Part shown: positions 4,601 to 17,388 of the stretch, in pieces
Layout: every line of letters starts with the position of its first letter
How positions within the stretch are numbered: position 1 is the stretch's first letter
IMG/VR virus record: IMGVR_UViG_3300010149_000103
Span: 1-28,259 of that record
Length of the DNA: 28,259 bases
Origin: a virus
Direction: 5' to 3' (one strand)
Translations under genes and position numbers: made by a program
The notes under the pieces: generated by a model
Told to the model about the DNA's origin: nothing
The model's database searches: none
The model's input: only the letters and a program-made list of their open reading frames with translations

Positions 4601-5485
4601 ATCATCAGCATACTGGACTATAAAAAAGCTTCCCGTATAGTTTCCAATAACAGAATTGGAAGCATTATGATAAAGCTGTAAATCACCGCCAGTGCCAAAT
4701 ACAGCTTTCGCATTGTCAGCAAACTCTAACGCGCTATCGGACTTATCCCAAACGGCGCTGTAAGAAGCTCCCGTGAAGGTAACATCTCCATCATGCACCG
4801 CGCCATCATCGGTAACGGTTCCTGTGACGTTAATCCCGCTGCTAGTGGTTTCAAATTTTGTAGCGTTATCATATCGAAGGGAAACTGCGCCATCTGGCGT
4901 AAAAACGCCCATATACTCGCTGCCCGTTGTTTTCCCGATAAATATATTAGGGCCGTTGGATCGTATAAATAAAGAACCGCCGCCGACCTCATCTATATAA
5001 CTACTATTAGAAGCATGATATACTTCTAAATCATTGCCAAAGCCAAACTTCGCCTTAACATTATCTTGAAACTTTAAAGAATTAGCTGATCTATCAAATG
5101 TAATGTCATAACCAGCCGTAGCTCCGTCAAAGGTTACATCTTCCGCAAATGTAACCGCACCAGAGAAAGACGCGCCATCCGTAAACGGCAAATCGGAGGC
5201 CGATGGAGCGACGAACACAACCGCATCGCCGCTTAAGTTTATGGCGTTGTTGGAGTTATTGCTTTCGGAAACAGTTCTAGTAAGGGTGGTTCCACTAGCA
5301 GTGTAAGTCCCCGTCCCAATCTCAAAATTGGAGCCATCTTCGATGACGTAAGCAACGGTATTACCATCAGTGATACCGCCGCTTGAAAAGCTTTGGAACC
5401 CATCCACCGCAGAGCCAAGAGTTATTGTGCCAGTCCCCGTTGTTGAGGTGCTGACCTTTATACGGTTTCCGTAAGTATTGGGCAT
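1640..5485 (-). CDS. Long tail fibre with YadA-like head repeats (1281 aa)
   Basis: The N-terminal ~100 residues (TGTGTITLG ... GTYTASGTTLTR) match a module common at the start of marine phage fibre proteins. The middle (about 100-750) repeats units such as LQLYH, DNGSGG-x-TDY and DGRD(V/I)A-x-DGTKLDGIA. These occur two or three times each and point to internal duplication. From about 770 to 1190 there are many short repeats of the type N-(T/I)-A-(I/V)-G-x-x-(A/S)-G/L ... TTG-x-(N/Y)N. They resemble the left-handed beta-roll of YadA/Hep_Hag trimeric adhesin heads. A conserved C-terminal domain (about 1190-1281, ending GTNWYGFLAGAAFA) is of the kind found at the tips of marine phage fibres. 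TAGGAGTT precedes the ATG by 6 bases. It probably forms a trimeric receptor-binding fibre. The host receptor cannot be told from sequence. Confidence 0.85.
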   Translation of the reverse strand: MPNTYGNRIKVSTSTTGTGTITLGSAVDGFQSFSSGGITDGNTVAYVIEDGSNFEIGTGTYTASGTTLTRTVSESNNSNNAINLSGDAVVFVAPSASDLPFTDGASFSGAVTFAEDVTFDGATAGYDITFDRSANSLKFQDNVKAKFGFGNDLEVYHASNSSYIDEVGGGSLFIRSNGPNIFIGKTTGSEYMGVFTPDGAVSLRYDNATKFETTSSGINVTGTVTDDGAVHDGDVTFTGASYSAVWDKSDSALEFADNAKAVFGTGGDLQLYHNASNSVIGNYTGSFFIVQYADDGDIVLRSDNGSGGVTDYFRGDGSTGEAILYHYGNQKIATKSTGVDVTGSMTVSGTVDGRDVATDGTKLDGIAVNATANPNALDDLVDDTSPQLGGALQLNGNNIQANDSTSVVNNRIQLGTSQDLQLYHAGTDSHIYNETGNLVISNAADDKDVVIKADNGSGGLTDYLRADASSGQLKLSYYGSTKLYTASSGIQVNGYLGVTGNIGVQGTVDGRDIAADGTKLDGIATGANVGIPTTGGTFTGDVTFNEDILVGQNDKVWLGYVGSANQGLQLFHGGTSATIENHNFVTTYKSDGHTFKRHSTDREYMTLNEDTYHTVSLKASGTTRLQTSSSGVDVTGNIANTSGNMSIKTYGTLYITDEVGTTNASFADGGAVVLYNNHMERLRTNTTGVSVTGTLSATAVTGDGSGLTNLPAGASNVGTGNFIGGTGAGDALATGGDYNTLLGQQAGNDITTGDGNVAVGANAGASLTTGTNNVLIGRDTAQHAAQNHSGVIVGAYAGGALNSSGGASNSVAVGYESGGWSQGGRNTYLGYESGKFRTTGNDNTAIGNDSQRGQSGQTTMTSALPNTSVGSESLFNITTGLNNVVMGYRAGRTITSGGNNIIIGNDAGYSFSTQSNNIAIGTNAAKYSDQSNSIAIGYNSMGGGDSNANNNYRNIIIGYQAGTQHDTGENTYIGYQSGYNRVNGSKHTAIGYQSQYGGALNTTYSGNTSVGYKSLYSVTTGYDNVALGRDALLDNSTGNKNIGIGSLAGENITTGFENIAIGHEALGTNTTSNRNTAVGYQALYTSTTGENAAFGWQALRQASSGSYNTAVGANALSTVSTGYYNTALGRSSGDNITTGYNNIVIGYNASASSASVNNEVTIGDSNITRFRVPAAGIDNTSAALSGTTPSVDVSARDTYTITTSGNTTFTFTNPPSSPQVAKFTLILTAGGTHTLTWPTSVDWAGGSAPSAPASGEKNIYTFMSIDGGTNWYGFLAGAAFA

Positions 5486-6316: not shown

Positions 6317-7540
6317 TTAAGAAGTTGCGTGTTTAAGAACGCGCATAGCTTCCGCAAGAACAACCTCGCCGCCGACCCGCTTGCGAGCCAGATAACGCAC
6401 AAGGCCAGTTGATGCTTGGCTGTACGGGTCACGAAGAACCGATAACGCCACACGATCAACAATCATATATCCACGACGGAAGTCACCAATGATAACTGAT
6501 TTGGCTCCAGAAGCCGCATCCGCTACATCAGGAGCTTCCACATATGGGATGCCAATGATTGTGTTGGGCGCACCCGATTGACCAGAGAACCCCGTTTGGA
6601 AGATATACTGCCCTGCAGTGTCCTTTAGCTTACGGATGATGCCAAGCGTTGTGCGATTGAACATCATGGTAGCATTAGCCGCATAGTCAGACTTAAGTCC
6701 ATGCACCAAGTCCATAAGGTTATCAGTAGTGATAGCCGCAGAAGCTGCACCTGTGGCAGTGTGCGCAACTACGTTACCATTTGTGATACCGACTGGTTTA
6801 TTAGTTCCATTGCCGCTAATGAACGCCGCGCCTTCACTTTTTGCAAATTGCTCAGCAAATTCTTGGTTCATTTCCGCTTCCATATCAAAAGCCGCATCTT
6901 CAAGAAGTTGGCTTGAAATATCAACCATCGCGTATTGCTCATGCGTAGCAATAGTTTTCAAAGCAGTTGTGTAACCAGTGGTTTCAGCCCGTGTGCCAGT
7001 TTCCGCCGTCCACGCCGCCGCGAAGTTTGCGGTTTTTTGTGGAATTTCAATCTCTTTAGAGTTTGTTTGGCGCACACGCGCAACAGACCGAACAGGGGAT
7101 ATTTCTGTTACGATCTTAATGATTTCCGCAACATATTCCTCTGGGGCCAAGTTACCCGCCGTAGCCGCCGAGCCGACGGTCAAAGCTTTGGTTTCTTCTG
7201 CATCAAGACCTTCATTGCCCTTGCGCATGAACTTATCCCATGCCTTCATTGCAATATCGATCTGCTTGACTTGAACGCCCGCGTTTGGACGCTTAAGCAT
7301 TGTTTCAATGCTATCAAGCTTTTCTGCAAAACCTTCTGCCGTTTTTTCTTGCTGCACAAGCTTCTGGTTGACGCTTTCGTAGCGATCAAGTTCAGCTTCG
7401 ATCTTAGCAAGCTTTGCCTCTACAAGAGGGTCAGAATCGCCCTTTTTTTCTAGTTCTGCAACGCGCTGATCATTGGTAGCTTTAAATTCTTCAAAAGCAC
7501 CGTTCAGCCCTTCCAGATAAGTTTTGATGTTATCGTCCAT
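6317..7540 (-). CDS. Major capsid protein, HK97 fold (407 aa)
   Basis: Residues 1 to about 95 form a charged helical and coiled-coil segment (delta domain), which acts as a scaffold in HK97-type capsids and is usually removed by the prohead protease. The rest matches the HK97 phage capsid family: a conserved (E)ISPVRSVARV strand-helix near residue 145, an E-loop region around WTAETGTRAET (177-187), the EDAAFDMEAEMNQEFAEQFA spine helix, SGNGTNKPVGI, and a C-terminal IVDRVALSVLRDPYS segment. Length is typical for family members with a delta domain. The protease gene lies 18 bases upstream, the usual arrangement. AAAGGAAGTT supplies the ribosome binding site. Its N-terminal cleavage site cannot be fixed from sequence alone; the start of the mature protein is probably near residues 95-115. 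Confidence 0.96.
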   Translation of the reverse strand: MDDNIKTYLEGLNGAFEEFKATNDQRVAELEKKGDSDPLVEAKLAKIEAELDRYESVNQKLVQQEKTAEGFAEKLDSIETMLKRPNAGVQVKQIDIAMKAWDKFMRKGNEGLDAEETKALTVGSAATAGNLAPEEYVAEIIKIVTEISPVRSVARVRQTNSKEIEIPQKTANFAAAWTAETGTRAETTGYTTALKTIATHEQYAMVDISSQLLEDAAFDMEAEMNQEFAEQFAKSEGAAFISGNGTNKPVGITNGNVVAHTATGAASAAITTDNLMDLVHGLKSDYAANATMMFNRTTLGIIRKLKDTAGQYIFQTGFSGQSGAPNTIIGIPYVEAPDVADAASGAKSVIIGDFRRGYMIVDRVALSVLRDPYSQASTGLVRYLARKRVGGEVVLAEAMRVLKHATS

Positions 7541-7558: not shown

Positions 7559-8410
7559 TTAGGATTTTAGGATATTGGTCAAGCGATTAATCTCACTTAC
7601 CAGTTCAGAAGGCATTTCCTGTTTGCCAGCATCCCGCTGTTCCAGTGCCTTGGCGACAGCCGAAGCCGCAGCCTTTGCCTCGTTACGCGATAGGCTCCCT
7701 GCATCCCGCAGTAGTTCCTCCCATTCACGAACGGTGCGTTCCGCGCCCTTTACCGCTTGAACCCGTGCGCGTGGGTTCATTGGGAATGTGACGGCGGAAA
7801 TCTCCATAAGGTCAACAGACTTAAGGTAGCGCCGCTTGCGCTTTTCGTCATAATCAACCCCTTTAGGGTCTACGCGATAGCCAATACTTAGACCATCAAG
7901 CGCACCCATCTTCATTAGTTCGTACACCTCGCGCCCGCGCTGCGTACCCATTGCCAACCGCCCTTTAACCTTAAGGCCACGGCGGTCTTCTACGATCTCA
8001 TCAAATACCCCAATTGGCTCATCTTGGCGGTGTTGGTACAAGAGCTTCACAGCTTTTGCGCCCTTTTGCCCAATAGATTTAGCAAATGCACCTTCTACAA
8101 CCACATCGTTTCCTAGGTCTTTGTTTCCAAAAATAGAGCCATACCCAGTGAAGACACCCTGATCTTCCCCGTTGGCTTCAGCCTTGTATTCAAAAGCAAT
8201 GTCCAACGTCTCCGACTTGGCTTCTTGCTCATCAATGTATTGTTCTAGATCGACCTGTTCTTCTGTCATTTGCTTGCCCCCATATTGGCTCATGCAGACT
8301 GCTAACCTCTGGTCGCTGTCTGGAAATTCACTTGATACCTTGTCATCACCCATACAACGGCTAACAAAGCTGTCCCTATCTTCTCCGACTTTAGGCTTTG
8401 GCAATGGCAT
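7559..8410 (-). CDS. HK97-family prohead protease with N-terminal extension (283 aa)
   Basis: This is the serine protease that processes the capsid shell during maturation. Residues 1-47 carry a Cys-containing module (PLPKPK-x-GE ... FVSRCMGD ... RLAVCMSQ) common in proteins of phages of alphaproteobacteria. The protease domain spans about 70-225. It has an FxGYGSIFGNKDLGND start, the catalytic His in LLYQHR (H127), the Ser in LDGLSIGY (S175), and an acidic residue in DLMEISAVTFP (E203) that may complete the triad. The C-terminal tail (230-283) is helical and could act as a scaffold segment or recruit the capsid protein. It sits directly upstream of the major capsid gene as in most HK97-like phages. 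Confidence 0.95.
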   Translation of the reverse strand: MPLPKPKVGEDRDSFVSRCMGDDKVSSEFPDSDQRLAVCMSQYGGKQMTEEQVDLEQYIDEQEAKSETLDIAFEYKAEANGEDQGVFTGYGSIFGNKDLGNDVVVEGAFAKSIGQKGAKAVKLLYQHRQDEPIGVFDEIVEDRRGLKVKGRLAMGTQRGREVYELMKMGALDGLSIGYRVDPKGVDYDEKRKRRYLKSVDLMEISAVTFPMNPRARVQAVKGAERTVREWEELLRDAGSLSRNEAKAAASAVAKALEQRDAGKQEMPSELVSEINRLTNILKS

Positions 8411-8451: not shown

Positions 8452-8640
8452 TCAGACGTCAAAGTCTATGCGCCGCTCTACAAAAAGTTGGCTAATAGTG
8501 CTTTGAACAACACGCCAAGTCCTACCAATCTCCTCAGGTTCAACATAGGCTATTAGGTCTTTGATTGTCTCATAATCTTCGTTTGTCATTTCATCTTCTA
8601 AGCTAAGAATTTCCTGTATCTTATCAGCCGCCTCGCTCAT
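8452..8640 (-). CDS. Small acidic helical protein (62 aa), unknown
   Basis: The ATG at 8640 is preferred because AAAGGAT lies 6-7 bases upstream. Translation would begin 17 bases inside the end of the minor head protein gene, a coupled overlap. The product is acidic and probably all helical (EAADKIQEILSLEDE ... EEIGRTWRVVQSTISQLFVE), with no cysteines or membrane segment. It lies between the minor head protein and the prohead protease, so a head assembly accessory role is plausible but unproven. I do not recognise a family. Confidence 0.6.
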   Translation of the reverse strand: MSEAADKIQEILSLEDEMTNEDYETIKDLIAYVEPEEIGRTWRVVQSTISQLFVERRIDFDV

Positions 8641-10525
8641 CAAATATCCTTTCTATAATATCTAATGCTTTAGGGTGTACCAGTTCTTTCTTTCCCATCA
8701 TATAGAGCGCAAAACTTTCAACGAAAAACTCCTTCTCGTTTGTTTCCCCATAGCGCGTGGATATCTCAGCCTGTCTGCGAACCTTTCTGTATCCACGCCA
8801 GAACTTCTTTAGCTCCCCTTCTAAAGGTGGCGTCTTATCAAACAAGCTTCGGCGCTTCTTGTATATTTGGTGTATATGGTGACCGAACTCGTGGTACATC
8901 AGTGACCGCAAGTGCTGTAACCCGTGCGCACTGTACTCCTCGGCTGTCCATGGCTTGCTAATACTTGAGTCGTCGTTGCCAACATACCACAGCCGCGCTC
9001 TACTGCCCAACTGTTGCTCAGGGTTAAATATCTGTTGGTGCGCCCTGTCGTTTAGCAGCTCCTCACGCAGCTTGTCCCGCTGCTTGTATAACCGCTCGCG
9101 CCGCTTTGGGTCTGTGGTGTTTTCGATCTTTTCTTGTACTTCACGCAGTTTGGCTTGCGTTGCCGCCCGTGCCGCAAGGAGCTTGCGATACTCGCTTTCC
9201 AGTTCGCTAAGGTCTTGCACATCAAGGTCTTTAACGTAGTTGTTCACAAACCTAGCATTCAGCCCAAGTATCCCGTCACCCATATTGCCAACAACGCCAT
9301 CCCTCTTCACTGGCTTGATGCCCCGTAGCCTTGGGATGTTTAGCCAATCCGCAAAGTAGTTAAGCTCTTTCATAATTCCAGCAACCGCTATCACTGCATC
9401 GTCAGTCAACCCATCGTTTGCCCAGCTACCCACATCAGCAAGGGATCGGCCACGAAACACAACACGTCCCTCAATCTTGTATGACTTGTGCGTCATAGCA
9501 TCACTTAGGCGCTCTTGCGTTGCCGCCCAAGCATCACGTCTATTGGTTTTGCGGGCAAACTCCTTAAAGGTTCTGTTTGTTATGCCCGCCTCAAATGGGC
9601 TTACAAAGGTTTCACCAATAGGCAAGTCGGCAAGGACATCCTCAACCGCCTCCTCAAATAACTCTGGCTCTGGCTCATTAATGCGGGCCAGAAAGTCATC
9701 GAGCGGTGAGCCACCCGTGGGGGTATCCTCTGGTTCATCGAAGCTATCAAAAAGCGCATCCTCGTCGGTAAAATACACAGCAAGGCACCGACAGTTAATG
9801 TTATTTGCTGCACCCCCGCTCCCATCGTGCGGGTAGTCCATAGCGATCTCTTGGCCCTTAAATCGGATAATAAACTTCTCTTCTATGCCTACTTCTTGCC
9901 CGTTTGCCGCTGCGTGAAACGAACGTGTGCGCCCATCACCTACACTGACCCATCGTTTGCGCTGGGCTGGTAAGTTAAGCTCTTTGGTGGCTTCGTGGGT
10001 GGCATAGCTTGCCGCCGCGTGTGTTTCTGTGCGGGCTATGGTTGCCGCCCTTGCCCTGCCAATAGCCCCTTTAGTCTTTTCCTTAATCAGCTTGGCTGTA
10101 CTGTCTACGCCCAACCCTTCATCTTCTCCAGCGCGGATAGCCCGTAAGATGCGTCTGCGTGTGGTGTTCGTCACCCCGACAACCCTTTCCGCGCCCTCAC
10201 GTGCATAAAACTGAAACACAAAGTTACCAAAGGACGTAAGCTTTCGATTCTCATAAACCCTGCTCGCAAACTTGTTTATGACTACTTCGTAATGTGCGCG
10301 GTATATCCGCTCTAACTGCCCCTGCAAGGGTCGTAAGGCATCGTCTATTGTTTGTCGGCGTTGATACTCTTCAGCCGCTGCATCCCCCACCCTTGCAAAA
10401 GCTGTGTAAAGGCTTCGGGCCATTGCCCGTTCGTATCGCATCCGCAGCCGATTAACTTCCTTAATCTCTTTAGAGATAGATATTCGGGTCTTGTGCGCCG
10501 CTTTTATAAATACAGGAAACGTCAT
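8624..10525 (-). CDS. Mu gpF-like minor head protein fused to a zincin-like metallopeptidase domain (633 aa)
   Basis: Residues about 30-255 match the phage Mu gpF/SPP1 gp7 head morphogenesis family: RARAATIARTETHAA (157-171), then VGDGRTRSFHAAANGQ (195-210), MDYPHDGSGG (229-238) and the family signature NINCRC (242-247). A proline- and acid-rich linker (260-300) follows. The C-terminal half is not part of the family. It has a coiled coil at about 437-495 and an HEFGHH motif (H545, E546, H549), followed 54 residues after H549 by FFVESFALY, where E603 could be the third zinc ligand. That layout is typical of gluzincin-like metallopeptidases. Family members of gpF are usually far shorter. The protein is probably placed in the head at the portal vertex and may be ejected with DNA, so the peptidase could act in the virion or the host. 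The ribosome binding site is poor (AAAGGGC directly before ATG). Confidence 0.88.
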   Translation of the reverse strand: MTFPVFIKAAHKTRISISKEIKEVNRLRMRYERAMARSLYTAFARVGDAAAEEYQRRQTIDDALRPLQGQLERIYRAHYEVVINKFASRVYENRKLTSFGNFVFQFYAREGAERVVGVTNTTRRRILRAIRAGEDEGLGVDSTAKLIKEKTKGAIGRARAATIARTETHAAASYATHEATKELNLPAQRKRWVSVGDGRTRSFHAAANGQEVGIEEKFIIRFKGQEIAMDYPHDGSGGAANNINCRCLAVYFTDEDALFDSFDEPEDTPTGGSPLDDFLARINEPEPELFEEAVEDVLADLPIGETFVSPFEAGITNRTFKEFARKTNRRDAWAATQERLSDAMTHKSYKIEGRVVFRGRSLADVGSWANDGLTDDAVIAVAGIMKELNYFADWLNIPRLRGIKPVKRDGVVGNMGDGILGLNARFVNNYVKDLDVQDLSELESEYRKLLAARAATQAKLREVQEKIENTTDPKRRERLYKQRDKLREELLNDRAHQQIFNPEQQLGSRARLWYVGNDDSSISKPWTAEEYSAHGLQHLRSLMYHEFGHHIHQIYKKRRSLFDKTPPLEGELKKFWRGYRKVRRQAEISTRYGETNEKEFFVESFALYMMGKKELVHPKALDIIERIFDERGG

Positions 10526-10530
10526 GCCCT

Positions 10531-10539
10531 TTTATAGCA
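10531..10539 (-). promoter_or_regulatory. Possible extended -10 promoter for the minor head protein operon
   Basis: The minus strand reads TGCTATAAA, an extended -10 (TGnTATAAA) ending 5 bases before the ATG at 10525. Transcription would start at or next to the start codon, giving a leaderless or near-leaderless mRNA. This fits the lack of a good Shine-Dalgarno sequence. A leftward terminator lies upstream at 10990-11029, so a promoter is needed about here. No convincing -35 box is seen. Confidence 0.4.
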
Positions 10540-10570
10540 AATAAAATTTTCCTTCTCTACACAAGAATAT

Positions 10571-10613
10571 TTGTAAATAAACTATTTACAAAGTGTCTGG
10601 GGTTTGATAGAAA
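10571..10613 (+). promoter_or_regulatory. Promoter with palindromic operator, site A (drives the 10645 cassette)
   Basis: The palindrome TTGTAAATA, AAC, TATTTACAA (10571-10591) covers the -35 box TTTACA (10585-10590). A 17-base spacer leads to the -10 TAGAAA (10608-10613). Five bases later is TGTAAGCAAC (10619-10628), which would be at the transcript's 5' end. The same arrangement recurs at 22495, 24550 and 26268. A protein dimer bound to the palindrome would block or modulate RNA polymerase. Confidence 0.8.
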
Positions 10614-10644
10614 GGCTTTGTAAGCAACGCAGAAAGGTAAACAA

Positions 10645-10983
10645 ATGTCACGCACTTCAGATTACAACTTCGCAGTCAACGTAGCAGAAACAGTAGAAGG
10701 CCTTTGCAAAATTGACGCACTTCGCTTTCACGCTTTCAATACTAACGGTCTGTGCTCTGCAGCACATGACGCGCAAGCCGCACTGTTAAAAGCTGTTGAA
10801 GAAGGAAAAGTCAAGTCAGGCGCTCTTATTGCTTATGATGTTTACAACCGCTTCGGCTACGAAGCTATCATGCGCCAAGCACAACGCAAGCAACCAAACT
10901 TCGGCAAAGCAAAACGCGCAATTGAATGGGTGCAGAGCGACATCAAAAAAATCTACGAAGCTATCGCTGAAGCACATAATTAA
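10645..10983 (+). CDS. Unknown protein of an inserted rightward cassette (112 aa)
   Basis: This is the first gene of a three-gene rightward cassette set among leftward structural genes. AGAAAGG before the ATG is a fair ribosome binding site. The protein is mainly helical and basic toward the C-terminus (RQAQRKQPNFGKAKRAIEWVQ), with two cysteines (C21, C37) and no membrane segment. It is expressed from site A, the same promoter type as the early right-arm operons, so it is likely an early or host-takeover gene rather than a virion part. I do not recognise a family. Confidence 0.75.
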   Translation: MSRTSDYNFAVNVAETVEGLCKIDALRFHAFNTNGLCSAAHDAQAALLKAVEEGKVKSGALIAYDVYNRFGYEAIMRQAQRKQPNFGKAKRAIEWVQSDIKKIYEAIAEAHN

Positions 10984-10989
10984 CAAAAA

Positions 10990-11029
10990 GCCCCCGACCT
11001 ATCAGTGCGTAACCTAATGGGTCAGGGGC
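10990..11029 (-). terminator. Rho-independent terminator for the leftward terminase-portal transcript
   Basis: GCCCCCGACCTAT (10990-11002) pairs with ATGGGTCAGGGGC (11017-11029), with one mismatch and one G-U pair over a 14-base loop. Read on the minus strand, the stem is followed directly by TTTTTGTTAA. On the plus strand it is followed by GTCCAAC, with no U-run. It should therefore stop leftward transcription arriving from the portal gene, and at most act as a weak structure for the rightward cassette. Confidence 0.7.
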
Positions 11030-11054
11030 CGTCCAACAGGGAGGAGTTGAACTC

Positions 11055-11189
11055 ATGCCAAACCATGGAGCTTTGAACATGCCACTAAAGATTATCACAG
11101 AAACACTTCTATTTCTAGCGTTCACACTAATCATCTTTAACTTACCAAGCCTGATCCAATACTTCGGGCAACTAATAGGAGGAAACTAA
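11055..11189 (+). CDS. Small single-span membrane protein (44 aa)
   Basis: GGGAGGAG lies 8-9 bases before the ATG at 11055; a second in-frame ATG at 11079 would give 36 residues but lacks as good a ribosome binding site. The product has one hydrophobic helix (IITETLLFLAFTLIIFNL, about residues 12-29) and a short polar tail. Its size and single span recall holin-like or envelope-acting phage microproteins, but no lysis gene is adjacent. An early, envelope-directed role is inference. The stop lies one base before the start of the next gene. Confidence 0.6.
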   Translation: MPNHGALNMPLKIITETLLFLAFTLIIFNLPSLIQYFGQLIGGN

Positions 11190-11190
11190 A

Positions 11191-11358
11191 ATGCTATCCA
11201 AGATGCACACAGAATACACTCGTTGGCTAAAGGTCGCAAAAGAACTGCAAACACAATATGAAGCTGGTGACGATCAACGCGCCATTGAAGTGGGCCGCAA
11301 ATCAATTGCTCGCTTAGAGCAAAAGATAACAGAACTGGAGGAGCAAGGAGCCGCTTAA
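11191..11358 (+). CDS. Small helical protein (55 aa), unknown
   Basis: The start follows a strong ribosome binding site, AGGAGGAAACTAAA, inside the end of the previous gene. The sequence is almost entirely amphipathic helix (RWLKVAKELQTQYEAG and AIEVGRKSIARLEQKITELEEQ), suggesting a helical hairpin or coiled coil that oligomerises. It is the last gene of the cassette. No family is recognised. Confidence 0.6.
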   Translation: MLSKMHTEYTRWLKVAKELQTQYEAGDDQRAIEVGRKSIARLEQKITELEEQGAA

Positions 11359-11366
11359 TTGCGGCT
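11349..11366. other. Short hairpin between convergent genes
   Basis: AGCCGC (11349-11354) and GCGGCT (11361-11366) form a perfect 6-bp stem with a 6-base loop, overlapping the stop codon of the 55-aa gene. The portal gene converges from the right and ends at 11410. There is no U-run on either side, so intrinsic termination is doubtful. Confidence 0.35.
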
Positions 11367-11409
11367 CATGTGCATCGTAAACGTGACAGATACCGCATCC
11401 GTGCCACAA

Positions 11410-13545
11410 TCAGTCACCTGTCTTAAGCGGGTGGCCCTCTGGCAGTAAGTCAGTGTCAAACTTGCCGCCCTTAAAGCGCCCATTACGCACAGCATACAAA
11501 AAAGAGTTGACGCGAGCGTAAGCCCACTGATCACTTGAACGCACTGTTGGCCTTACGCTTTGTGGGTTGGTGTTGTAAGCCCCGACACCCCGACGGAATA
11601 CAGCCTCCAACATTGATTGCGTGACTTTCTTCCCCTTCTTCTCTCCGTGTTCAGCGTTGTGTTCTTTAACTTTTTCAGCAAGCCCCTTTTTTACAGCCTC
11701 GCTGACTTTGGCCTTTTGCTCTGAGTAAGACTTTTCGCGCTCCTTGTCTAACTGATCAGTCTTACGGTTTGCCCAGCTTTGCCCTTCATCACCGCCCCAA
11801 CCAAGCCAAGCTATCAAGCCATTGCTAGGCCAGCCATCTTCACCCCTGCGAAAGCCTTGCGCTTCCTTATCTACTTCGTGCCGTGCAAAAAAGCTTTTCA
11901 TCCGACGAACAGTATTAGGCGATAAGCGCTCACGATCTATAAGCTGGTTAGCCCGCGCTACACCGACAGCCGTCATGCCCCGACCGTATTCCTTGCGCAA
12001 CTCTAATGATCGCGCTGCGTTCCGCGCCATTGCCGCTGTTGGGACAGTATCAACATCTCTTTCGGCCTTGTCTTCTTCGCCTTGCCAGCGAGCGCAAACA
12101 TACTGGATGCGCACTTCGGCATTAAATAGTTCGCAGTTGCCTTGCTCGAAGTGGATGCAGTTTCCACAACGCTCTTCACCATCGCCCATTCGATAAGCTT
12201 CTGGCAACTCGTCAGGTACTTCTTCACCGTCTGGATAGAAGTCAAGCTTAGAACCATATGCCGCTTTCCCTGCTTCCTCTGGGTCTTGCCCTTCATCTTC
12301 TGCCACCTCTGGGCCTCCGAGCGGGAACAAGTTAGCCGCAATAAACACTTCATCACCACCACTAATAGGCTCCAAACCCAAGCGCTCACGAGCTTCGTTA
12401 CGGCTGATAATCCCCTCACGCACTGCCGCAACTACGTTTTCGTATACCCGTCTGCGCCGTTCTGTCATTGCGGGTATGCTATCAACATCGTAACGGATAT
12501 TTATCTCGTCACCGAAGCTAGGGGCGAGCCATTCGTTTAAGTCGCTTTCAACGCGCTTGGCTAATGGGATAATCGTTTCTTCATATAACGCCAAACGCGC
12601 CTCTTGGACGTTAGCATAAGTCTGGCTGTCTGGGATACCAATTAGCTGAGAAGGAATACCAAAACAAAGCGCGATGTCTTTTGCTGCCATATGCTTATTT
12701 TGCAAGAAGTCCATATCCCTTGGGGACATGCCCATCTCCTTCCAATCAAAGTCTCCCTCCAGCAACAATGGTCGACCAGCGTTATTTTGCCCTGTAAACC
12801 TACTTTCCAAGTCGCTTGCCACTTGCTGTCGCTGTCCGTCCGTCAACATAGTCATATTGCCCATGTCATCCTTTGGCTTAAACACAATCGCGCCACTTGG
12901 CCTTGCGCCATTTACTAGCAACCCGATATTGTGTTTGGCGATCAGGTTGTGCTGATCCAAATCAACCGCAGCCGCCATAAGTGGAGACAAACCTAGATAG
13001 TCATCTAGCGGATTCCAGAATTTAAAGTGCTTAACCTCACTCTGACCAGTCATCGGGTCTGCATCGTATTGGGCGACGACCTGATTATTTAGCTTGTATC
13101 TGTAAGCCTTGGGTATCGATGTCTCACTTGGCTCAATCTCAACTCTATCTGGACGTAAAAGATAAAGCTCTGTCGGCACCATGTTCACAGCAGAAGCAAG
13201 GGCGTAACTGTTCCCCGACAAAAGCATAAATGAATAAAGCGCTTGAAAATATTCTACGCCCGCTTGGGTTGGGTTTGGCCTGTTGAGTAGGCTGATCAAT
13301 GGGTGTCGCTCTAGCTTTATATCACCTTGATACACCCTAAAAGGTATGGATGCTGCACCGTTTGCGATCTCATTTACACAGCGATAGACAATCGCGTTCT
13401 GTTGATACCCTTCACTAGCGTAATCCTTAAAATCGTCCTTACGCTTATGACTGAACATACTGCCCTGAACGTATACCTTGGGCGCTTCTTTTGTTTCAAG
13501 GCGCTGCCCAAAGATAGCCCCCCGCAAGTTGTCAATAATGCCCAT
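11410..13545 (-). CDS. Portal protein with long C-terminal extension (711 aa)
   Basis: Residues 1 to about 410 match the HK97-type portal family: AIVYRCVNEIANGAASIPFRVY (51-72), HPLISLLNRPNP, FYxxY-like helix, ELYLLRPDRVEIEP, GLSPLMAA, FGIPSQLIGIPDSQTYANVQEARLALYE (295-322), and EARERLGLEPISGGDEVF. It forms the dodecameric DNA gate at one capsid vertex. The usual length is about 400-450 residues. Here about 300 more follow: a four-cysteine knot (C460, C463, C471, C484), a helical region (502-595) with LSPNTVRRMKSFFARHE and GLIAWLGWGGD, a charged coil (596-640), and a DUF5824-like end (MLEAVFRRGVGAYNTNP ... SVRP ... SSDQWAYARVNSFL). The last parts resemble modules seen in other marine phage structural proteins. 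The start overlaps the terminase stop. Confidence 0.93.
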   Translation of the reverse strand: MGIIDNLRGAIFGQRLETKEAPKVYVQGSMFSHKRKDDFKDYASEGYQQNAIVYRCVNEIANGAASIPFRVYQGDIKLERHPLISLLNRPNPTQAGVEYFQALYSFMLLSGNSYALASAVNMVPTELYLLRPDRVEIEPSETSIPKAYRYKLNNQVVAQYDADPMTGQSEVKHFKFWNPLDDYLGLSPLMAAAVDLDQHNLIAKHNIGLLVNGARPSGAIVFKPKDDMGNMTMLTDGQRQQVASDLESRFTGQNNAGRPLLLEGDFDWKEMGMSPRDMDFLQNKHMAAKDIALCFGIPSQLIGIPDSQTYANVQEARLALYEETIIPLAKRVESDLNEWLAPSFGDEINIRYDVDSIPAMTERRRRVYENVVAAVREGIISRNEARERLGLEPISGGDEVFIAANLFPLGGPEVAEDEGQDPEEAGKAAYGSKLDFYPDGEEVPDELPEAYRMGDGEERCGNCIHFEQGNCELFNAEVRIQYVCARWQGEEDKAERDVDTVPTAAMARNAARSLELRKEYGRGMTAVGVARANQLIDRERLSPNTVRRMKSFFARHEVDKEAQGFRRGEDGWPSNGLIAWLGWGGDEGQSWANRKTDQLDKEREKSYSEQKAKVSEAVKKGLAEKVKEHNAEHGEKKGKKVTQSMLEAVFRRGVGAYNTNPQSVRPTVRSSDQWAYARVNSFLYAVRNGRFKGGKFDTDLLPEGHPLKTGD

Positions 13546-15318: not shown

Positions 15319-15852
15319 TTATTGCCCATTTGATAACCAAGATAGCAAATCCTTGGCTAAATTTGAAGTATCCTCAATTTTTCGCAAGTAATGTAACTCT
15401 ATTACCTCCCCTAGCTGCTTTTGAATGTTGGCTGTTTTTGTTTGCCTACCCTGTAAAAACTTAGCAGTTTGGGTGTCGCCGCGTTGTTTATGGCGCTCAT
15501 GTAAATCTTCTGCACTCGCCTTTAAGATAATCACCCGTGTTTCATACATTGCCATAAGCTTTTGAAGGTTAGCCCCTGTGAACAACCTATCGCCCTCAAA
15601 TAACAGGTTGCGACTTCGCTTCTCTGCGTACTTAAGGAAGTGCGGGTTTACATTCATTGCAAGCTTATCTGTGCCGAGAAATGTTTCCCCTGTTCCGTAT
15701 ATGCCGAGAAGGGCCAGATTACGGGTGTTGTCTACATGCCCACGAACCAGCCCAAACTTAAAGCCTTTAGGCTCATTCAGTGTATCATAAATCTTGCTAA
15801 CTAGCGTTGTCTTACCCGTGGCGGGTTCTCCCCCTATCGCTACGCATCGCAT
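15319..15852 (-). CDS. P-loop kinase, hydroxymethylpyrimidine DNA kinase-like (177 aa)
   Basis: The N-terminus carries a Walker A loop GGEPATGKTT (7-16). Later motifs are LLGIYGTGETFLGTDKLAM (48-66) and LLFEGDRLF (83-91); the E-G-D-R-L acidic motif is typical of phage P-loop kinases linked to DNA base hypermodification. HERHKQRGD (118-126) and FLQGRQTKT could be the lid that contacts phosphates. Such kinases phosphorylate the 5-hydroxymethyl group of bases in phage DNA. Here the gene directly follows an oxygenase that could make that group. The two overlap by one base (TAATG), so they are coupled. Alternatives are a nucleotide or polynucleotide kinase, or a zeta-toxin-like enzyme; I favour the base-modification role because of the neighbours. 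Confidence 0.75.
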   Translation of the reverse strand: MRCVAIGGEPATGKTTLVSKIYDTLNEPKGFKFGLVRGHVDNTRNLALLGIYGTGETFLGTDKLAMNVNPHFLKYAEKRSRNLLFEGDRLFTGANLQKLMAMYETRVIILKASAEDLHERHKQRGDTQTAKFLQGRQTKTANIQKQLGEVIELHYLRKIEDTSNLAKDLLSWLSNGQ

Positions 15853-16793
15853 TATCCGTTAAGCCCCTTTAAGTCTGTTCTGTTCTTAATTACCTCTAGC
15901 TCGTCCTCTGCGCTGCCACAGTTCATCATGTTCTCTCGATAATAGCACACGATGCTGATGCGCTCATATGGGCCTTTAGCCTTAATCGGAAGGTTTCCGT
16001 GTAGCTCATGCACATTAAAAAAGCACACATCGTTAGATCGCACATCAAACCCAACGCGGAAACGCGGCATACAGGTATATCCACCTTCGTACTTGCCAGC
16101 TTGCATCACGGCAATGTTACCAAGCCCGCCTTCGTAGTCGCCAGCGTCATAGTGCAGTGCTGTTCTAAAGTTCTTATTGACCGTTACAGTCGTAAACACC
16201 GTATCCCCGATAACAAAGTCTTTGTGCGTATCCTGTACGACCTTGTTCTGTGCTTCCCAGCGAGAGGGGCAAGCCTTCTGAAACTCATCGCTGATGCGCT
16301 TAATATATGGGTATGCCTCTGAGAACTGTCCGAAGTTCTTTTCTGTCCACGCAGTTTGTCGGCAGTATGGGAAGCGCAACGTTCTGTCAAAGTAGCCAAT
16401 GATGCCGCTGTTGACCATCTTGGCGCGTGTCTGCTTAGAAACATATCCGTCTTTTGTTACGTTACGATAGCGCTTCTTTTTGGTGTCGGCATCAATAACG
16501 CCCTGCCGCACACTAAGCACCTTGTCATCGTTAACATAGAACTCGCCAGCCGCGTCACCCCTGTTGTCGGTTGGTGTTGCTGCATGTCTTAACGCACCGT
16601 AAGCCGCCTTACATAAAGAAGTCGGTATTACGTTCTTGCGGAACATGAAAAGCGGGTTGCCATCCTCATCGTAGGCATCGCAGTCATAATCAATAATGTG
16701 GTCAATCTCGTGTTCCTCTAGGAACGTACCCGCCCGCGCTGACCATTCTTCCTTCGTGCCGTAGGCTTTTGCCTCAAAGATTTTTACACTCAT
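15852..16793 (-). CDS. 2-oxoglutarate/Fe(II) dioxygenase of the TET/JBP type (313 aa)
   Basis: The C-terminal half has the features of TET/JBP DNA-base oxygenases: TVTVNKNFRTALHYDAGDY, where H214 and D216 form the HxD iron site; then NIAVMQAGKYEGGYTCMPRF; SNDVCFFNVHELHGNLPI, with H265 the probable third iron ligand; and YERISIVCYYRE, with R278 the likely 2-oxoglutarate-binding residue. The MVNSGIIGYFDR segment (126-137) is also typical. These enzymes oxidise the methyl group of thymine or 5-methylcytosine in DNA. No cytosine methyltransferase is seen in the window, so thymine is one candidate substrate. It is flanked by a ParB-like gene and a P-loop kinase, with 20- and 1-base overlaps. The gene lies in one transcript with the terminase and portal, consistent with modification after replication. 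Confidence 0.82.
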   Translation of the reverse strand: MSVKIFEAKAYGTKEEWSARAGTFLEEHEIDHIIDYDCDAYDEDGNPLFMFRKNVIPTSLCKAAYGALRHAATPTDNRGDAAGEFYVNDDKVLSVRQGVIDADTKKKRYRNVTKDGYVSKQTRAKMVNSGIIGYFDRTLRFPYCRQTAWTEKNFGQFSEAYPYIKRISDEFQKACPSRWEAQNKVVQDTHKDFVIGDTVFTTVTVNKNFRTALHYDAGDYEGGLGNIAVMQAGKYEGGYTCMPRFRVGFDVRSNDVCFFNVHELHGNLPIKAKGPYERISIVCYYRENMMNCGSAEDELEVIKNRTDLKGLNG

Positions 16794-17388
16794 TTTCTAC
16801 CGCCAACACCACAGCGTCTGTGATGTTCTCCAAGTTGTTAGCTTTCATTATCTTATCGCATTGTTCGCGGAACCGTGGCTCACTTTGCTGGTCTAAGTAT
16901 AACAAAACCATCTTCACATGGTTAGCGGGCAAAACGTCCAACCCTTCTTCTTCAAGCTCTTCTTCTAGCTCGTCCTCGCCCTCGAACTGCAATAGCTCCT
17001 CGTTAAGCTTGGCAATCTCGTCTAGTTCAAAGCCTGTAAGCCCCATGTCATAATCAAGTTCTGCAAGTAAGTTAAACTCATGGGCTAGAAGCTCTTTATC
17101 CCACTCAGAAAACTCAGCAGTCTTATTGTCTGCTATCCTGTAAGCTGCTTTCTGCGCGTCACTTAACCCCTTGGCAATGACACAAGGAACACTATCAAAG
17201 CCCAAAGCAGTCGCAGCAGCGTGTCGGGTATGCCCCGCAAGTATAATCTTCTCCTCGTCAATAACTATCGGTTGCTGCCAGCCAAATTCTTTCAAGCTCT
17301 CGGCGACCTTTGTAACCGCAACATCGTTTTTTCTTGGGTTGTTATCGTATGGTTTGATGTCTGTAATGTTAAAAAGCTCAATTTGCAT
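16774..17388 (-). CDS. ParB-like nuclease-domain protein (204 aa)
   Basis: Residues 8-100 match the ParB N-terminal domain: ITDIKPYDNNPRKND (8-22), VAESLKEFGWQQPIVIDEE, and GHTRHAAATALG (52-63) with the conserved GHTR motif, then AAYRIADNKTAEFSEWD. This domain binds CTP in chromosomal ParB and occurs in phages beside DNA methylases and base-modification enzymes. The remaining part has an acidic run (residues 136-149, mainly E/D and L) and a C-terminal alpha/beta segment. There is no ParB HTH of the classical kind. AGGTGG precedes the start. It is the first gene of the leftward modification-packaging operon. It may guide or license the modification enzymes on DNA; this is inference. Confidence 0.85.
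   Translation of the reverse strand: MQIELFNITDIKPYDNNPRKNDVAVTKVAESLKEFGWQQPIVIDEEKIILAGHTRHAAATALGFDSVPCVIAKGLSDAQKAAYRIADNKTAEFSEWDKELLAHEFNLLAELDYDMGLTGFELDEIAKLNEELLQFEGEDELEEELEEEGLDVLPANHVKMVLLYLDQQSEPRFREQCDKIMKANNLENITDAVVLAVENECKNL

Follow-up and report, generated by a model that had tools for sequence, protein, structure and literature searches.

A MuF minor head protein joined to a predicted lethal-factor-like protease and a type-matched small partner gene in a viral contig and its relatives

Minor head proteins such as SPP1 gp7 and Mu gpF share the MuF domain and are encoded beside the portal gene; SPP1 gp7 lacks a toxin domain (PMC5576092), and Mu gpF has a different C-terminal domain (PMC5512222). 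In MuF polymorphic toxins, a shared MuF N-terminal half is joined to an exchangeable enzyme domain and followed by a small downstream gene (Jamet et al. 2017, PMC5576092; Apk2 and Bxa, PMC11699363). Among 191 MuF toxins a metallopeptidase domain occurs in 20% and a small open reading frame (ORF) follows 89.4% (PMC5576092), and Apk2 and Bxa are each neutralised by a small protein encoded nearby (PMC11699363). Fusions of MuF with a metallopeptidase, and pairs of a MuF toxin with an immunity protein, are already known in general. Here we analyse a contig of a marine phage, IMG/VR virus record IMGVR_UViG_3300010149_000103 (28,259 bases; this whole stretch is the window), which encodes a MuF minor head protein fused to a predicted lethal-factor-like zincin and, overlapping it, a small partner gene. 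Judging from the genes, we consider it probable, at roughly 60%, that the two form a MuF effector module, in which the protease would be packaged in the virion and injected, and the small protein would be its cognate inhibitor.

The fusion gene, of 633 residues, lies at 8624-10525 on the minus strand, the strand that applies to all coordinates given below for its parts, the partner gene, the prohead protease and the portal gene, and begins with ATG. An earlier sequence-only reading had proposed this ORF as a minor head protein fused to a zincin-like metallopeptidase, with a gpF-like N-terminal domain and about twice the usual length. The ORF and its translation are confirmed; profile matches, sequence conservation and a confident model all support the fusion; and the statement on length holds, MuF relatives without an extension being 253-274 aa long. 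The N-terminal assignment is likewise borne out: Phage_Mu_F (PF04233) matches residues 126-248 with an E value of 5.1e-13 (50.2 bits against a cut-off of 29.6), and PHROG 2468, for head morphogenesis, spans residues 20-259 (E 3.3e-42), so that residues 1-260 (9746-10525) are, on these profile matches, a MuF minor head protein. An acidic linker with a net charge of -11 (residues 261-334; 9524-9745) stands between this part and the zincin domain (residues 335-633; 8627-9523).

The same reading had pointed to HEFGHH at residues 545-550, which is present, with the HExxH motif itself (HEFGH, residues 545-549) at 8879-8893. An HExxH alone is a weak claim (0.03 copies are expected from the protein composition), and the matter is settled here by conservation in a set recruited without the motif. 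The initial scan for relatives used MYHEFGHH as its pattern, and motif conservation there was not counted; the search was repeated with the MuF half alone as query, and all 37 of the 37 distinct C-terminal domains recruited in this way carry HExxH, in variants such as HEFGHHIHQ, HEFGHQIHQ, HEFAHHVHQ, HEVGHQIHQ and HEMGHQIHQ. A chance motif is thus rejected. Our alignment A2 (31 rows) also shows that E387, R540, Y544, H545, E546, F547, H549, H552, Q553, E569, Y592, E599, F601 and E603 are invariant, which includes all predicted catalytic residues, in sequences just 26-36% identical to the window domain. As for the downstream zinc-binding Glu, the sequence-only reading had placed it in VESFALY. 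This stretch is present and a downstream Glu does exist, but the third ligand, next to H545 and H549, is likely E599 (8729-8731) rather than E603 of VESFALY, because in a profile alignment the Glu of the solved zinc hydrolase 9urd falls on the E599 column and because E599 stands 7 residues after the invariant Y592, a Tyr-Glu spacing which we take to be that of lethal factor.

The ATLF profile (PF07737) matches residues 529-613 with E 7.5e-6, at 26.2 bits against a cut-off of 27.4, and relatives likewise score just below the cut-off; we therefore call the domain ATLF-like and not an ATLF member. Structure prediction, as that reading had suggested for the C-terminal part, gave an AlphaFold model of residues 335-633 with a pLDDT of 88.6 and a pTM of 0.82. 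Foldseek with this model returned no match below E 0.001. A second structural aligner returned lethal factor in all of its top 18 rows (Z 10.1-10.5 over ~168 residues, rmsd about 4), and nearly all of its lower rows match only a helical, coiled-coil insert (about residues 437-508; 9002-9217), seen as helices in the model and, by the gaps in the alignment, absent from Pelagibacter-type relatives. Taken together, alignment and model identify residues 335-633 as a lethal-factor-like zincin with a complete predicted active site. A reading of the sequence around VFRGRS as an ADP-ribosyltransferase was dropped, being without Pfam or structural support.

Related MuF halves exist in three states, with no extension, with the window-type domain, or with a second zincin of the HEYGHHVD type; C-terminal domains are thus exchanged on a common N-terminal part, as in MuF polymorphic toxins. 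The model of the second type (pLDDT 92.4) matches lethal factor with Z 12.3 and Pro-Pro endopeptidases with Z 9.8. In a profile-profile comparison of the two zincin types just 17 residues align, around HExxH, so their relation rests on the fold. It looks, from alignments and models, as if phages with this MuF half swap distant branches of one protease fold. A third, longer zincin extension (TWRHEYGHHIDY, alignment A7) is found on the same MuF family in three relatives (L145, L160 and L164), and this subgroup has a third kind of small partner gene, unrelated to the others.

The most informative feature of the locus is one that the sequence-only reading did not contain, the overlapping small gene at 8452-8640. 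Its ATG lies 17 nt inside the 3' end of the protease gene, whose stop codon it overlaps, it has its own Shine-Dalgarno sequence (AAAGGA, 8647-8652) 6 nt before the ATG, and it encodes an acidic protein of 62 aa with a net charge of -10. A programmed frameshift that would extend the protease into the small ORF was rejected, since start offsets occur in both alternative frames (e.g. -17 and -4) and the window ORF has an ATG and a Shine-Dalgarno sequence of its own. After removal of near-duplicates, a small ORF follows 42/42 MuF genes with the window-type domain and 12/12 relatives with other lethal-factor-like zincin types, in which it is unrelated to the window type, as against 3/21 short MuF genes. 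All three of the latter look spurious: two have their start in a different frame, right ahead of the following gene, and the third uses GTG at -46. The small gene is thus tied to the presence of the putative toxin domain, as in MuF polymorphic toxins, and the idea that it is a general neighbour of MuF genes was rejected, given its absence next to the short ones. When the protease domain served as the seed of another scan, on contigs that are partly the same as those of the first set, the partner was found by script in 53/55 cases and is visible by eye in the remaining two, with a non-ATG start or a longer ORF.

The small proteins are also matched to the protease that they accompany. A profile of window-type partners scores partners from Pelagibacter-type loci higher than any of 4,000 shuffled sequences, whereas no other-type partner exceeds 1.8 bits, far below the 11.9 bits of the top shuffle, and the reverse profile search agrees; some window-type partners are missed by the profile, and the most divergent ones are assigned by their position and overall character. 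Where one protease type occurs on very different MuF halves, the partner family stays the same, and where one MuF half carries another protease, the partner family is another one. On these sequence comparisons, the partner family follows the protease type, whatever the MuF half. The small proteins carry a net negative charge in 39/42 window-type and 12/12 other-type cases, and searches of them against Pfam and PHROG gave no convincing match. The dN/dS of the partner gene is about 0.1-0.6 where measurable, as expected of a real protein gene. In one relative (L238), from about position 5165 onward, the partner ORF continues into collagen-like GxxGxx repeats and looks as if fused with a tail-like protein.

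Three relatives (L012, L019 and L020) show how the pair varies. Their MuF halves are 97-98% identical (dN/dS 0.03-0.06), their protease domains 57-64% and their partners 54-60%, and nucleotide identity drops from >90% to about 50-75% from shortly past the MuF half through the partner end and is back at 92-100% in the S78 prohead protease gene. Over 98 pairs, which are not independent, protease and partner identity correlate with a rho of 0.75, or 0.73 after allowing for the MuF half, compared with 0.25 between MuF half and partner. We conclude from these identities that the protease domain and its partner diverge and recombine together as one cassette. Because the pairs are non-independent and adjacent genes move together, this correlation reveals a unit of exchange and not contact between the two proteins.

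The effector module that we favour would work as follows. The MuF half would place the protein in the procapsid near the portal, and the protease would travel in the head and enter the host with the DNA, where it would cleave one or more host proteins; that these are regulators or defence factors is a guess. The small acidic protein from the overlapping gene would bind and silence the protease during head assembly, sparing phage and host proteins from premature cleavage, and would be left behind or fall off before or at ejection. Several points weigh against this proposal. The single-sequence match to the lethal-factor Pfam family is 1.2 bits under its cut-off, neighbouring genes recombine as a pair whether or not their products touch, a chaperone would show the same pairing, and a processing role for the protease is possible in the cultured Pelagibacter (SAR11) phages HTVC026P and Kolga, in which S78 was not detected.

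The alternative that survives best keeps the injected protease and makes the small protein a loading chaperone or adaptor instead of an inhibitor. Type-specific pairing, co-divergence and gene overlap fit a dedicated chaperone equally well. Against this, the small proteins are mostly acidic and so resemble many immunity proteins, a class in which acidity is common, and the small partners of the MuF toxins studied so far are inhibitory (PMC11699363). We regard a chaperone as improbable, though it deserves the most attention among the alternatives.

A little less probable still is a role in head assembly, in which the zincin would act inside the procapsid as an additional assembly protease, trimming proteins of the head or scaffold or the MuF protein itself, with the small protein timing its activation. 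The sequence-only reading had proposed both delivery with DNA and processing of head proteins. The fusion to a head protein and its place in the head module speak for processing; the module runs in the order terminase, portal (11410-13545; Phage_portal, E 6.3e-79), MuF fusion, S78 prohead protease (7559-8410; Peptidase_S78, E 1.6e-34) and major capsid protein (6317-7540), with the fusion gene downstream of the portal gene as is usual for the Phage_Mu_F family. HTVC026P and Kolga, with the fusion and no detected S78, also speak for it, and autoprocessing zincins have been proposed for phage polyvalent proteins (PMC5512222). In the window, however, the zincin is not the sole head protease, and a head maturation role is unlikely for it because the S78 protease is a separate gene. 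S78 is present in the window and in six relatives of nearly full size whose MuF protein bears a protease; six relatives without either zincin type (40-48 kb contigs) also keep S78 and build heads. No zincin was found anywhere in the contigs of the short-MuF relatives, and the zincin is therefore dispensable for head building. Its sequence also changes far faster than that of the MuF half, and some relatives have another type in its place or none at all, which is not how a core assembly enzyme behaves. Of the two functions proposed earlier, delivery with the DNA thus appears, from the gene comparisons, to be the better reading, and processing is disfavoured in the window phage.

The distribution of the module bears on a third alternative, in which a prophage-released, phage-borne protease harms competitors and the partner is an immunity protein of the lysogen. 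Head proteins with this protease are encoded in 324 stretches matched in one viral collection, and also in HTVC026P (L072, gp30) and Kolga (L073, gp59), where the proteins are annotated merely as 'hypothetical protein' and 'putative head morphogenesis protein' and are each followed by a small gene. MuF toxins were confined to temperate phages in Jamet et al. (PMC5576092), and Sphingobium Leaf26, whose genome has tyrosine recombinases, carries the module, so some carriers may be temperate. Leaf26 is, however, the only one of 84,980 bacterial and archaeal species genomes with the module at the sensitivity used. Searches for integrase, resolvase and rve gave no match in the window record, HTVC026P, Kolga or six contigs of 44-50 kb whose MuF gene includes a protease domain; some of these records may be incomplete. 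One of these six, of 45,326 bp, is evidently complete, because its two ends, compared with a relative and not joined, continue one protein at residues 317/318. We consider the lysogen weapon quite unlikely. Least of all do we expect a catalytically dead, structural zincin relic beside an unrelated head-module gene, a view that can appeal to the activity being predicted from sequence and model, but that sits badly with catalytic residues invariant at such low identity and with short MuF genes that have no such neighbour.

Returning to the effector module, we speculate that virulent marine phages, including those of SAR11, inject a lethal-factor-like protease whose inhibitor is a safety catch for assembly only and not lysogen immunity, that each protease branch has its own unrelated inhibitor family, and that the pair moves between phages as one cassette, within an arms race whose object is a host substrate. 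This wider picture is tentative, and we would sooner expect it to fail in some part than to hold throughout. Most marine phage genes lack a known function, and the module is a specific and widely distributed early-effector candidate. With it, the range of MuF toxins would come to include lethal-factor-like proteases, and also phages in which no integrase is detectable and for which immunity of a lysogen would not account for the partner. If true, the small partners would be natural protein inhibitors of this protease fold.

Other parts of the window also merit a brief description. The gap between the portal and MuF genes (10526-11409) holds a 112-aa ORF on the opposite strand (10645-10983, plus strand), and it looks like a hypervariable insertion site, because it is non-homologous between the otherwise near-identical L012 and L019. 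The portal protein, of 711 aa, is prolonged at its C terminus by a long segment that includes a Cys-rich stretch and a weak match to DUF5824 under the cut-off (E 1.3e-4). Beside the terminase genes, a minus-strand cluster at 15319-17388 encodes a P-loop kinase-like ORF (15319-15852), a Tet_JBP-type oxygenase (15852-16793, E 2.6e-19) and a ParB_N protein (16774-17388), and it looks like a DNA base hypermodification cluster.

Compared with known systems, what is apparently new here is the occurrence of lethal-factor-like clades in marine and SAR11 phages, including integrase-less ones, together with their type-matched partners and cassette exchange. We found no description of the protease-partner pair in the open-access literature, which is weak evidence of absence. 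In contrast to MuF polymorphic toxins at large, every extension recruited through the MuF half of the window family is a zincin, each zincin type has its own matched partner family, and no integrase is seen in many of the carriers, whereas the published MuF toxins come only from temperate phages, mainly of Firmicutes. For Apk2 and Bxa toxicity and immunity have been shown; for the window module they are proposed by analogy, from the genes. Some zincins of phage polyvalent proteins are seen as lethal-factor-like by profile, and these metallopeptidase domains are, like ours, zincins in phage-delivered proteins (Iyer et al. 2017, PMC5512222). Compared by description and not by clade, polyvalent proteins are large and multi-domain, with zincins proposed for self-processing, whereas the window protein is compact, consists of two parts and comes with a partner gene of its own. 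With anthrax lethal factor, the ATLF family and Pro-Pro endopeptidases, the domain shares HExxH, the downstream Glu and an invariant Tyr before it, and with lethal factor the predicted fold (Z 10.5 for the window type and 12.3 for the other type). It differs from lethal factor in its fusion to a phage head protein, its helical insert and an identity of 16-17% in the structural alignment, and the window protein has no receptor-binding or translocation parts.
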